From the NCBI GenBank assembly GCA_020354045.1, contig CP070639.1, forward strand, positions 1 through 44,632: DNA of 44,632 nucleotides, in the 5' to 3' direction. The stretch's first letter is position 1, and each line of letters starts with the position of its first letter. Of this stretch, positions 3,278-6,601 are shown piece by piece. Under the pieces are notes generated by a model, which was not told the origin of the DNA, did not search any database, and worked only from the letters and a program-made list of their open reading frames with translations. The stretch comes from Anaerolineales bacterium. Its GTDB lineage: Bacteria; Chloroflexota; Anaerolineae; Anaerolineales; UBA4823. Made by a program: the position numbers and the translations under genes.

Positions 3278-3712
3278 TCAAGACAGGGTTTTGTGCATCA
3301 ACACGGCGCTGGAAGGACACAGGCTCTTGAATTCAGCCGTATCCTGGATAGAGGCAGGCGCTTGTTCTCGTGAGATGATATGGTACCCCTGTCTGGTAAA
3401 GAAATCCTCGGCTGTGGTGGTCAGTAGAAAAAGCTCCCGGAGGCCGTGTTGCCGGGCCAGTTCCTCGATCTGTCTGGTGAGCTGAAGCCCCCAGCTTTTC
3501 CCACGTGAATCCCCCCGAACTGCCAGGGAGCGCAACAATCCAACCTGGCCAAATTTCTCCAGGCCTACCGTGCCGATGAGAGCTCCTGCCTGGCGCAGCA
3601 CCAGAAACCCATCCATCAGCCCGCTGGACAGGTCTTCGCTAGGTAGTAGGCAAGATCTGAGCATATCCTTGATCTCGTCTTCGTCGCTGGGTTTAGCACG
3701 CGTGATCATCAT
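3278..3712 (-). CDS. GNAT acetyltransferase, ArsN2-like
   Basis: Predicted 144-residue N-acetyltransferase. It begins MMITRAKPSDEDEI, has the GNAT core strand and acetyl-CoA loop LLRSLAVRGDSRGKSWGLQL (about residues 60-80), then FLLTTTAEDFFTRQGY. The C-terminal FKSLCPSSAVLMHKTL closely resembles the end of ArsN2-type proteins linked to arsenic resistance, but no ars genes are nearby, so the substrate is open. An upstream ATG at 3829 is in frame, but it lies within the hairpin at 3799-3829 and the added residues are not GNAT-like; I prefer 3712 (or 3709). It sits downstream of the SPFH operon and is separated from it by that hairpin. Confidence 0.72.
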   Translation of the reverse strand: MMITRAKPSDEDEIKDMLRSCLLPSEDLSSGLMDGFLVLRQAGALIGTVGLEKFGQVGLLRSLAVRGDSRGKSWGLQLTRQIEELARQHGLRELFLLTTTAEDFFTRQGYHIISREQAPASIQDTAEFKSLCPSSAVLMHKTLS

Positions 3713-3798
3713 TTGGTTAGACCCATCTGCCCGGGTTGCAAACCGCTGCGCTGGTTTGTTCTTAAGCAGATTATAGGCGCGAATAAACTTCACGGGAA

Positions 3799-3829
3799 GT
3801 GGGGATTGCCCACTGCAGGCAATCCCCAC
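3799..3829. terminator. Perfect 12-bp stem hairpin after the SPFH operon
   Basis: GTGGGGATTGCC (3799-3810) and GGCAATCCCCAC (3818-3829) pair perfectly around a 7-nt loop. It lies 15 bp downstream of the 73-aa protein gene on the minus strand, where it can end the GntR-SPFH transcript. The T6 run is on the plus-strand side (3833-3838), so orientation is ambiguous. Confidence 0.6.
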
Positions 3830-3844: not shown

Positions 3845-4066
3845 TCACTCACCGGGCCAGGAGCGTCTGCGGCGGGCTGCCTGGGCGAGTGGGCGCTTGG
3901 CGACGATGCGCAGCTTGTTGCTGTTCGGTGGGTTTTCGATGGAGAACACTTCCCAGCCCTCTTCCCCGATTTCATCCAGGAAAATCTCAAGCACATCGTC
4001 TTTGGTGCCAGTCCAGAAGGTTCCCAGGGTCTCTACGCGGTATTCCCATTGGGTGGGTGGCTTCAT
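3845..4066 (-). CDS. Small DUF4177-like protein
   Basis: A 73-residue protein beginning MKPPTQWEYRVETLGTFW, with LDEIGEEGWEVFSIENPP and LRIVAKRP. The pattern of a WEYRV strand, an E-GWE turn and a closing R-x-x-x-K-R-P strand is that of small DUF4177-type proteins, whose function is unknown. The tail is basic (AARRRRSWPGE). Its start lies only 3 bp after the SPFH stop, so the two are almost certainly cotranslated, which suggests a role linked to the SPFH protein. Confidence 0.7.
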   Translation of the reverse strand: MKPPTQWEYRVETLGTFWTGTKDDVLEIFLDEIGEEGWEVFSIENPPNSNKLRIVAKRPLAQAARRRRSWPGE

Positions 4067-4069
4067 CGC

Positions 4070-5017
4070 TCACTCCTCCTGTGGTGGGATTGGAGAGCTT
4101 TGTCCCAGGGCTACCATGCCACTCAGGCCACCTAGGTTCATGGTGTCAACCGCTGAGCTGGGCACAATCACCATGGCGCCCTTCTCTTTGAGACCTTCAA
4201 AGAGCATGTTCATGGCGCGTAAGTGGAGTGCGGTCGGGTTGTCGATGTAGGCTTGGGAGGCTTCGGAGAAAGAGTGCGCGATTTGTTTTTCCGATTCACC
4301 CAGGATAACTCGCGCCTGTCGTTCGCGCTCGGCTTGAGCTTGGCGGCTCATGGTGTCCTCGAGCTCCTGAGGGATAACGACATCCCGAATCTCAACCGAT
4401 TGCACGGTCACGCCCCAGGGTGTGGTGCGCTCGTCGATGATTTTTTGCAGGTCGGCATCCATGCGGGCGCGTCCGACCAGGATATCTGCCAGGTCCATCT
4501 GGCCGATCACTTCTCGTAAGGCAGTTTGGGCGGCCCAGGCGATGGCAACGCGGTAGTCTTCTACCTCCAGGGCGGCTTTTTCGGCATCCCACACCATCCA
4601 GAACAGCACGGCATCCACGTCAACAGGGACAGTATCCTTGGTTAACGTTTTTTCAGCGCTGAAGGGCGTCACCATGACGCGGTGGTCAATCCAGTTGGCA
4701 ATTGTATCCACGATGGGGACAATCCAATACAGCCCAGGCCCAAACAGGCCGCGGTACTTTCCGAAGCGCAACACCACCGCTTTCTCCCACTGGGCTGCAA
4801 TTTTCAGTGCCAGCAGCACATAGGTGGCGATCAAGGCGAACACCACCACATAGCCTCCAATGAGCAAGTCGGGGATTGCAGCCTGGCTCATCAGGATGGC
4901 TCCCAGGGCACCGATGAGATAGAAGAAGGTAGCCACAGTAATTGCAACGCCGTTCAGGCGGTTGGTGGTCAGCTCTTTGGGCGATAATTTGGGGTCAAGT
5001 TTAATTCTCTTGTTCAT
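4070..5017 (-). CDS. SPFH/band 7 (slipin-type) membrane protein
   Basis: A 315-residue membrane protein. Two hydrophobic segments (about residues 24-43 and 51-72) precede the SPFH domain, which starts at QWEKAVVLRFGKYRG and runs through GPGLYWIVPIVDTI, TKDTVPVDVDAVLFW and WGVTVQSVEIRDVVIPQELEDTMSRQAQAERERQAR, diagnostic of stomatin/slipin proteins. These form oligomeric membrane scaffolds tied to lipid microdomains and quality control. A slipin is often paired with an NfeD-type protease, but no nfeD gene is adjacent; instead a GntR repressor lies 14 bp upstream and the 73-aa protein 3 bp downstream. The transcriptional repressor in the operon implies inducible expression. Confidence 0.9.
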   Translation of the reverse strand: MNKRIKLDPKLSPKELTTNRLNGVAITVATFFYLIGALGAILMSQAAIPDLLIGGYVVVFALIATYVLLALKIAAQWEKAVVLRFGKYRGLFGPGLYWIVPIVDTIANWIDHRVMVTPFSAEKTLTKDTVPVDVDAVLFWMVWDAEKAALEVEDYRVAIAWAAQTALREVIGQMDLADILVGRARMDADLQKIIDERTTPWGVTVQSVEIRDVVIPQELEDTMSRQAQAERERQARVILGESEKQIAHSFSEASQAYIDNPTALHLRAMNMLFEGLKEKGAMVIVPSSAVDTMNLGGLSGMVALGQSSPIPPQEE

Positions 5018-5031
5018 GGTTTACTCGCTTT

Positions 5032-5451
5032 CTAGGTGTCTTTGCTTTCCTCAAAGTATTGATCGCCTTGCTCCTGCCAGGCGCGGATATGGCGAACCAT
5101 CAGTTCGGCGACTTCCTGGGGGGAATAATCGAGGTGAGCCGCCTCTGCCAGGTAGCGGCGGGTCAGGCTTTCCAGTCCGTGCTGCCGCAAACGCTGGACG
5201 GTCTCTTGGCTGGGCTTATCCAGGATATAAGTGCCACGCCCTTGCTGGGTGGAAATCAGCCCGGCTTCGTCCAGTAAACGGTAGGCACGCGCTACGGTAT
5301 TAAAGTTCACTCTCAGCTCGGTCGCCAGCTGGCGTACTGTGGGGAGCTGGTCTCCTTGCTGTAATTCGCCAGAGGCCAGCATTTGCTGGATTTGCTCCAT
5401 AATCTGGGTGTAGATGGGCTCTCCCGAGCGAAAATCAAGCTGGAATTTCAT
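5032..5451 (-). CDS. GntR family repressor, YtrA-like
   Basis: A 139-residue regulator with the GntR winged helix at the N-terminus: MKFQLDFRSGEPIYTQIMEQ, then QLPTVRQLATELRVNFNTVARAYRLLDEAGLI and the wing QQGRGTYIL. The C-terminal part is only about 60 residues and helical, as in the short YtrA subfamily, which often controls membrane-protein operons next to it. I start at 5451 because the subfamily begins MxFxLD; a codon 10 residues upstream adds an unlike sequence. It is the first gene of an operon with the SPFH gene. Its own promoter at 5522-5549 overlaps an 8-bp repeat array, a likely binding site for it. Confidence 0.88.
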   Translation of the reverse strand: MKFQLDFRSGEPIYTQIMEQIQQMLASGELQQGDQLPTVRQLATELRVNFNTVARAYRLLDEAGLISTQQGRGTYILDKPSQETVQRLRQHGLESLTRRYLAEAAHLDYSPQEVAELMVRHIRAWQEQGDQYFEESKDT

Positions 5452-5481
5452 GATCTGCTGACTTTGTATCTCTAAGCACAA

Positions 5482-5529
5482 ATTGTATCATTGTCTAATT
5501 GTATTATTGTATCTTTGTATAATTGTATA
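5482..5529. repeat. Six phased 8-bp repeats at the GntR promoter
   Basis: Six units of consensus ATTGTATN start at 5482, 5490, 5498, 5506, 5514 and 5522, exactly 8 bp apart; variants are ATTGTCT at 5490 and TTTGTAT at 5514. A seventh out-of-phase copy, TTTGTAT, is at 5463. On the minus strand each reads as ATACAAT, a -10-like hexamer. The most upstream unit is the -10 of the GntR promoter and the rest fill its 5' untranslated region. Confidence 0.85.
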
Positions 5530-5549
5530 CCAATTTTTGGTTTTGTCAA
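5522..5549 (-). promoter_or_regulatory. Promoter of the GntR-SPFH operon
   Basis: Minus strand: a perfect TTGACA -35 at 5549-5544, a 16-bp spacer and TACAAT at 5527-5522. The spacer contains CCAAAAATTGG, itself a dyad. The -10 is the first unit of the 8-bp array, so a protein bound to the array would block initiation. Confidence 0.72.
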
Positions 5550-5640: not shown

Positions 5641-5669
5641 TTGTCATGCACTCTTCTGCGTGGTAGAAT
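5641..5669 (+). promoter_or_regulatory. Promoter of pdxS
   Basis: TTGTCA at 5641-5646, a 17-bp spacer and TAGAAT at 5664-5669. The predicted transcript starts near 5676 and has a short hairpin, GAGTC/GACTC (5684-5688 with 5695-5699), directly before the AGGAGGT ribosome binding site at 5700-5706. Confidence 0.65.
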
Positions 5670-5713
5670 GATTAAAAAATACCGAGTCGATTTAGACTCA
5701 GGAGGTCTGTTAT

Positions 5714-6601
5714 ATGGAACAACAGATTGCTACTTTTGCGGTTAAGAAAGGTCTGGCCCAGATGTTGAAGGGTGGTGTGATCATGGATGTGGTCACTCCT
5801 GACCACGCCAAAATCGCCGAGGACGCCGGCGCTGTGGCGGTCATGGCGCTTGAGAGGGTGCCAGCTGATATCCGTGCACATGGTGGAGTCGCCCGGATGA
5901 GTGACCCTGAGCTGATATTGCAGATCATGGACGCGGTTTCGATCCCGGTCATGGCCAAATGCCGCATTGGGCACTTTGTTGAAGCACAAATCCTGGAAGC
6001 CATTGGGGTTGACTATATCGATGAATCCGAAGTGCTGACCCCAGCAGATGAAGAACATCACATTAACAAGCATGTGTTCAAAGTGCCATTTGTATGCGGT
6101 TGCCGTAACCTGGGAGAGGCGATGCGGCGCATCGGTGAAGGTGCAGCCATGATCCGTACCAAGGGAGAGGCCGGAACGGGCGACGTGGTTGAGGCTGTCC
6201 GGCATGCCCGTTCTGTTTTGGGTGAAATCCGCCGGTTGCAGAATATGCCCGATGAAGAAGTCATGTCTTTCGCTAAAAGTATTGCTGCGCCGTACGAGTT
6301 GATATTAGAAACGCGCAGTTTGGGACGCCTGCCGGTGGTGAACTTCGCCGCTGGAGGGGTTGCTACACCTGCTGATGCGGCTTTAATGATGCAGCTTGGC
6401 GTGGATGGCGTCTTTGTAGGTTCTGGTATCTTCAAGTCTGGAGATCCAGCCAAGCGCGCCGCCGCGATTGTTAAAGCGGTGACGCACTACAAAGACCCTT
6501 ATATCCTGGCAGAAGTCAGCCGGAATCTGGGCGAGCCCATGGTTGGAAGGCAGGTTTCTAGCATACCCGAGGCAGAACTGATTGCAGATCGCGGATGGTA
6601 G
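5714..6601 (+). CDS. pdxS: Pyridoxal 5'-phosphate synthase subunit PdxS
   Basis: A 295-residue TIM-barrel synthase that builds PLP from ribose 5-phosphate, glyceraldehyde 3-phosphate and ammonia, in the DXP-independent B6 pathway. Very well conserved: [39 protein letters not shown] and [13 protein letters not shown]. Asp25, Lys82 (sugar Schiff base) and Lys150 (in [11 protein letters not shown]) fill the known catalytic positions. Length is normal. The ribosome binding site AGGAGGT is strong. pdxT follows 64 bp downstream, after a 6-bp hairpin at 6621-6639, and supplies ammonia to a PdxS12-PdxT12 complex. Confidence 0.98.

Follow-up and report, generated by a model that had tools for sequence, protein, structure and literature searches.

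The question raised by this locus is what purpose six short direct repeats serve in the promoter of an operon that begins with the gene of a GntR-family regulator. The initial annotation had set them against the statement that GntR operators normally consist of a single dyad, which holds for the usual case, but direct-repeat operators of GntR proteins exist as well, as described for NanR, NagQ, and FarR (PMC4494728). The features concerned, all located within the window, i.e., the whole stretch of 44,632 nucleotides that was analyzed, are as follows:

5544 to 5549, minus strand: −35 hexamer TTGACA, 16-bp spacer to the −10 hexamer
5522 to 5527, minus strand: −10 hexamer TACAAT from the promoter call, also the core of unit 1
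5482 to 5529, minus strand: candidate operator array of six 8-bp units, from repeat scoring and conservation in orthologs
5463 to 5470, minus strand: lone unit-like sequence GATACAAA, at a distance of 19 bp from unit 6, out of phase with the array and excluded from it
5032 to 5451, minus strand: GntR-family regulator of 139 amino acids, YtrA-type according to PF00392 (1.3e-18), predicted structure, and PDB neighbors; proposed binder
4070 to 5017, minus strand: SPFH/band-7 membrane protein encoded by the second operon gene (PF01145, 3.1e-38)
3845 to 4066, minus strand: small DUF4177-like protein, probably encoded by the third operon gene (PF13783, 4.7e-5, slightly below the cutoff)

A phased repeat array overlaps the promoter of a GntR-SPFH operon

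The claim that six phased 8-bp units are located at positions 5482 to 5529 was confirmed, the units following one another in exact register. On the plus strand they read ATTGTATC ATTGTCTA ATTGTATT ATTGTATC TTTGTATA ATTGTATA, and on the minus strand, which is the direction of transcription, TATACAAT TATACAAA GATACAAT AATACAAT TAGACAAT GATACAAT. Their description as six units of ATTGTATN is correct in number and phase but slightly generous in wording, since the motif ATTGTAT is exact in four of the six units and carries a single mismatch in the other two (ATTGTCT and TTTGTAT). The column-majority sum of the array amounts to 43 of 48, compared to a top score of 34 in 2000 resampled versions (first-order) of the intergenic sequence and a score of 32 for the next-best site within the window. 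When the source genome (3.59 Mb) was searched with a four-unit pattern allowing up to two mismatches, the single site obtained was the array in the window; the reversed control pattern gave no match in this genome at the same tolerance.

As had been proposed, the promoter-proximal unit coincides with the −10 element of a TTGACA promoter. The sequence TTGACA-16 bp-TACAAT agrees with the consensus at 11 of 12 positions, and the promoter transcribes the GntR gene (ATG at 5451) and then the SPFH gene. Downstream of this operon, positions 3278 to 3829 (minus strand) encode a GNAT protein whose score exceeds the NCBIfam cutoff of ArsN2, an acetyltransferase for arsenic resistance.

The array is conserved at orthologous loci

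Orthologs of the GntR protein were found in 21 of 38 genomes of the source family at an E value of ≤1e-25 and, at ≤1e-20, in 160 of 251 sampled genomes of the order and 54 of 298 of the class. The named relatives mostly belong to Chloroflexota metagenome-assembled genomes, many of them labeled Anaerolineae or Anaerolineales, and include the isolate Longilinea arvoryzae KOME-1. For comparison of the promoters, a set of 137 loci was assembled from the family search (22 loci), the order and class searches (40 loci), and 75 loci fetched separately; the latter are a subset of the matches, hand-chosen for spread across families, from which G507 and G178 were omitted due to short upstream sequences.

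A recognizable TTGACA-type promoter, its spacer measuring 16 or 17 bp, is present in 125 of the 137 loci. Downstream of the −10 element, self-similarity peaks at lags of 8 (z 30), 16 (z 20), and 24 (z 10), values that were computed against mononucleotide shuffles and are descriptive because the loci are related. Consecutive [AT]CAA cores are 8 bp apart in 193 cases and 9 bp apart in 70 cases (approximately 1.5 and 1.3 in shuffles), and direct repeats at 8 to 9 bp are thus found within the promoter, as in operators of the NanR type. Loss of the array near orthologous GntR operons, which the initial annotation had named as evidence against its proposal, was looked for, and at least four TACAAT-type units at 8- or 9-bp steps were found in 94 of the 137 loci; shuffles of the same loci yielded approximately 0.1 arrays of four. 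In these 94 array loci, the −10 hexamer is TACAAT in 87 cases, whereas a promoter was called in 31 of the non-array loci, with TATAAT in 18 cases and TACAAT in 3. This contrast indicates that the array extends into the promoter core and that the third −10 base varies with the unit. The SPFH gene is located downstream of the GntR gene in 79 of the 94 array loci, and a DUF4177-like gene was detected within the fetched flank of 16 of them.

Units are arranged in pairs

Units were counted with a unit matrix that was built from the same 137 loci that it scored, allowing steps of 8 or 9 bp and one missing unit. The family-wide counts, which are phylogenetically correlated and barely change across four thresholds, were four units in 48 loci, five in 3, six in 40, seven in 1, eight in 2, and three or fewer in 43. 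Of 80 named loci, 34 duplicated the 137-locus set; the 46 further loci comprised 27 with four, 2 with five, 16 with six, and 1 with seven units, and the two five-unit arrays each owe their odd number to a weak terminal unit (ATGACAAA and GTGACAAC). At least 19 switches between four and six units are found on the GntR tree, whose resolution is weak (62 of 134 inner branches open).

The spacing of the units was tallied in the 88 arrays with all units present. Steps of 9 bp occur 83 times at odd steps (1, 3, and 5) and 6 times at even steps, and steps of 8 bp occur 130 times at odd and 123 times at even steps; none of 10000 within-array permutations was as extreme in the odd-step bias of the 9-bp spacing. 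Step 2 is 8 bp long in all 45 tallied arrays of the 46 further loci. Since the 9-bp steps fall at odd positions, the units form pairs, and two-unit modules are apparently a property of the array, which contains four or six units and almost never five. The counts alone fit both possible pairings, (1,2)(3,4)(5,6) and 1-(2,3)-(4,5)-6. Two observations speak against a clean two-unit scheme: the array in the window has a higher TRF score at a period of 24 bp, corresponding to three units, than at 8 bp (80 versus 63), and two loci (L157 and L168) show 9-9-9 steps.

The GntR protein is predicted to be of the YtrA type

The N-terminal winged helix-turn-helix (HTH) domain assigns the protein to the GntR family, with 66.8 bits for PF00392 against a cutoff of 27. 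In the predicted structure (pLDDT of 84.9), this domain is followed by two C-terminal helices (residues 82 to 106 and 111 to 133), i.e., by the short two-helix domain typical of the YtrA subfamily, and its closest neighbors in the PDB are short members of the GntR family, among them 6sbs (YtrA of S. acidocaldarius) and 2ek5 (C. glutamicum). With 139 residues in total and a first helix starting at residue 13, the protein has neither a FadR-type C-terminal domain nor an N-terminal extension. The top NCBIfam match of the HTH domain is PdxR, with 74.7 bits against a cutoff of 320 and covering profile positions 1 to 124 of 448; an aminotransferase-like domain as in MocR/PdxR proteins is absent from the protein, which ends at residue 139.

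The pdxS gene (5641 to 6601, plus strand) lies beside the array and is divergent from the GntR-SPFH operon, and among the 58 loci having 700 bp of upstream sequence, 19 contain pdxS on this side of the GntR gene. A link to pyridoxal phosphate, as might be read from the PdxR match and the divergent pdxS/pdxT genes, was rejected because the match is restricted to the HTH domain and below the cutoff, the aminotransferase domain is missing, and the array overlaps the promoter on the GntR side rather than the pdxS side.

Residue 50 of the recognition helix is Phe in 91 of the 94 array loci compared to 9 of the 43 others, and five of these nine Phe50 non-array loci (L084, L090, L096, L155, and L161) hold two or three units. 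The array loci L157 and L168 with their 9-9-9 steps have Pro50. The 46 further loci were picked by GntR peptide patterns that include Phe50 and therefore are no test of this residue.

Arrays also occur in trans and in both orientations

Pattern searches revealed eight arrays in trans in seven genomes, mostly at promoters of ABC transporters. Two of them belong to G008, one (L180) before a YhfC metalloprotease and ABC operon and one (L181) before a phosphofructokinase-like gene and an ABC ATPase; the array of G009 (L182) precedes the same phosphofructokinase-like operon as L181. The arrays L188 (G199), L191 (G143), L187 (G109), L189 (G207), and L190 (G190) precede genes for ABC-type ATPases that are pairwise 65 to 88% identical in the compared part and, where inspected, are followed by an ABC-2 permease.

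The numbers of units in cis and trans are equal in five genomes, with six each in G009, G199, G143, and G109, and four each in G190; the six units in cis of G143 include one bad unit. In G207, six units in cis are accompanied by seven in trans, of which the seventh scores 0.5, and in G008 five units in cis by five and six in trans; a sixth unit falls below the threshold in both L007 and L180. The genus-mates G190 and G207 differ from one another, having four/four versus six/six units plus one weak trans unit. Where all units were called, the step pattern is the same in cis and trans for the five trans arrays that are oriented like those before the GntR genes. The arrays L187, L189, and L190 are inverted relative to the ABC gene, so that these three cannot act solely at the RNA level or as −10 elements; all of their steps are 8 bp, which differs from the 9-8-8 start of the cis arrays in G207 and G190.

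In family f12, which is rich in 9-8-9 arrays, near-exact matches adjoin the GntR gene. The candidates L185, L186, and L193 were rejected as trans arrays because they sit before GntR genes (L185 and L186 truncated), and L192, which ends at a contig end, was dropped. Several other repeats were noted. L194 (G173:C57:10827-10863) consists of tandem ATTGTACA palindromes forming an ATTGTAC run of 8-bp period that is readable on both strands; no adjoining GntR gene was identified, and the site was left uncounted. Genomes of family f4 contain ACAATGA-type 8-bp arrays (G040:C30:18372, G066:C83:22537, G078:C77:3471, and G090:C61:3908) unlike the GntR promoter arrays of the same family, and G206:C180 was also left out of the trans set. 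A dispersed repeat near ACAAAGTCACAAAGACACAAAGCCACGAA occurs at seven places in one genome (G019:C16:35502 and six others).

Orthologs without an array

The non-array orthologs mostly form one part of the GntR tree. In some of those from the class-level search, the palindrome ATTGTACTA-N7-TAGTACAAT follows the TATAAT element; with at most one mismatch it is found in L089, L093, L102, L104 to L106, L109, L110, L112, L115, and L116, lying further upstream in L093, L104, and L105. The best dyad in the 43 non-array loci scores 7.16 of 9 versus 6.27 in shuffles, and the 94 array loci show no dyad excess (6.38 of 9 versus 6.35); nor do the latter have the long palindromic single site of the YtrA subfamily. 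The protein is thus YtrA-type by structure, but the operator presumed for it departs from what is usual in this subfamily. Other non-array orthologs show 8-bp repeats of a different unit; in one of them, a distant ortholog (L023, 44% identity), repeats of another unit, ACTAGTAT, were seen by eye at the same place and period.

As palindromes are found in some non-array orthologs and the dyad excess is confined to the non-array loci, the operator seems to have changed its type within the lineage. Tentatively, and at somewhat less than even odds, we propose that it has been swapped between a YtrA-like palindrome and a direct-repeat array counted in pairs, and that the number of pairs (two, three, or rarely four) may be set by the regulator, so that unlinked operators would gain or lose pairs together, even when oppositely oriented.

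A model for the array as an operator

We consider it probable, with a likelihood of about 0.82 as judged from sequence comparison, that the array is the operator for cooperative binding by the adjoining YtrA-type GntR protein, which would read it in pairs of units and repress its own promoter. One winged-helix domain would contact one unit of 8 or 9 bp, which reads xxTACAAT when followed in the transcribed direction. Two units would be used at once, in the simplest case with a single GntR dimer on each pair; the prevalence of even numbers suggests an occupancy of two units per dimer or per pair of dimers. Neighboring pairs at the fixed 8-bp step would bind cooperatively, with six units accommodating three dimers. 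As the first unit coincides with the −10 element and the remaining ones cover the start region, the filled array would shut the promoter, resulting in autorepression of the GntR, SPFH, and DUF4177-like genes. Repression may be released by a membrane-related signal: the SPFH gene as the common target, the DUF1648/SdpI and YhfC membrane proteins, and the ABC transporters point to a signal from the membrane or envelope. Cooperative binding by several repressor molecules, one of three possibilities offered by the initial annotation, is supported by the conservation at orthologous loci, the two-unit quantization, the matching numbers in trans, and the occurrence in both orientations. The other two possibilities, slippage and several alternative −10 elements, found no such support.

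It is unlikely that another transcription factor binds the array and that the GntR gene is merely its target. We infer GntR as the binder, and its gene itself lies downstream of the array, which would suit a target, but the array tracks the GntR gene across many families, helix residue 50 tracks the presence of the array, and ATTGTAT is similar to the GGTATA repeat recognized by NanR. Furthermore, a strict array and a GntR ortholog occur together in 61 of 62 genomes, although most arrays behind this figure are cis copies; the exception is G141, where the array is located at a contig end.

Even less probable is that the repeated TACAAT represents alternative or pausing −10 elements read by a sigma factor instead of a repressor. 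The first unit is indeed the −10 element and all units are −10-like, but the sigma-critical positions of the −10 hexamer are 2 and 6, whereas the best-kept bases among approximately 287 units are C (285) and A (286) at positions 3 and 4. In addition, a −35 element is present for unit 1 only, the non-array orthologs mostly have TATAAT, and in three trans arrays the units run opposite to the gene. An RNA element with AUACAAU repeats in the 5′ leader, bound by a protein or a ribosome factor, would fit the position of most units at or after the predicted leader start and the tolerance of 8- or 9-nt spacing; it is nevertheless highly improbable, since unit 1 as the −10 would stay untranscribed, RNA from the inverted trans arrays would carry the complement, and leader RNA structure showed no excess over shuffles (z of 0.66). 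Equally improbable is a slippage-prone tract varying expression between cells (phase variation), for although short tandem repeats lie inside the promoter and their number varies between species, odd numbers are almost missing, close relatives agree (L069 and L070 both six, L158 and L167 both four), cis and trans numbers match, and the units diverge by substitution rather than being exact copies. A DNA operator accounts for the trans sites, for the overlap with the −10 element, and for the occurrence of arrays in either orientation, whereas the RNA-only, sigma-only, and slippage readings fail.

Comparison with known GntR systems

In one open-access library, we found no GntR protein with 8-bp direct tandem repeats, no GntR regulon or binding motif from Anaerolineae, no evidently related report on a GntR-SPFH operon, and, for direct repeats of GntR proteins in Chloroflexi, nothing beyond PMC4494728 and a paper on IclR; judged from this library, the array is apparently unpublished. 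The loci add many naturally occurring direct-repeat operators of GntR proteins whose unit numbers obey a clear rule, and in which related regulators differ by exactly one unit pair, some orthologs are palindromic, and both layouts occur on comparable promoters. Two questions are thereby opened to direct testing, namely in what way direct repeats are read by a symmetric dimer and how the architecture of an operator can change while the regulator keeps functioning. The odd-looking promoter is in this sense a natural experiment on repressor assembly on DNA, and the array offers a handle for tracing the regulon to which this unstudied membrane operon of Anaerolineae belongs.

MocR proteins such as PdxR and GabR bind direct repeats (PMC4494728) and have the HTH match in common with the window protein, which lacks their aminotransferase domain and matches far below the curated cutoffs. 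The motifs of the YtrA subfamily are described as long palindromes that are mostly single sites (PMC4494728); the bacterial YtrA operators share with the system described here the subfamily, the single local operon in most genomes, and some ABC transporter targets, but their palindromes differ from the array. YtrASa of Sulfolobus acidocaldarius, among the nearest solved structures, is likewise a YtrA-type protein; it autorepresses a membrane-protein operon from a site over the start site, and extra direct-repeat half-sites matter for its binding (PMC6746942). Its site consists of a 14-bp palindromic core with flanking half-sites, whereas the array loci are without dyad excess.

The NanR operator of E. 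coli K-12 has GGTATA repeats at steps of 9 and 8 bp, to which three NanR dimers bind cooperatively (PMC8012715). Like (GGTATA)3, the array combines a GntR-family regulator with direct repeats at 8/9-bp steps, a location inside the promoter, and the core GTAT. NanR, however, is a FadR-type protein with an N-terminal extension required for cooperativity, whereas the window protein is YtrA-type and has no such extension, and the three NanR repeats contrast with the mostly four or six paired units of the Anaerolineae arrays. With three repeats bound by three dimers, one dimer per pair would differ from the NanR stoichiometry; the NanR precedent nonetheless indicates that GntR dimers are able to bind direct repeats at 9/8-bp steps, several of them together.
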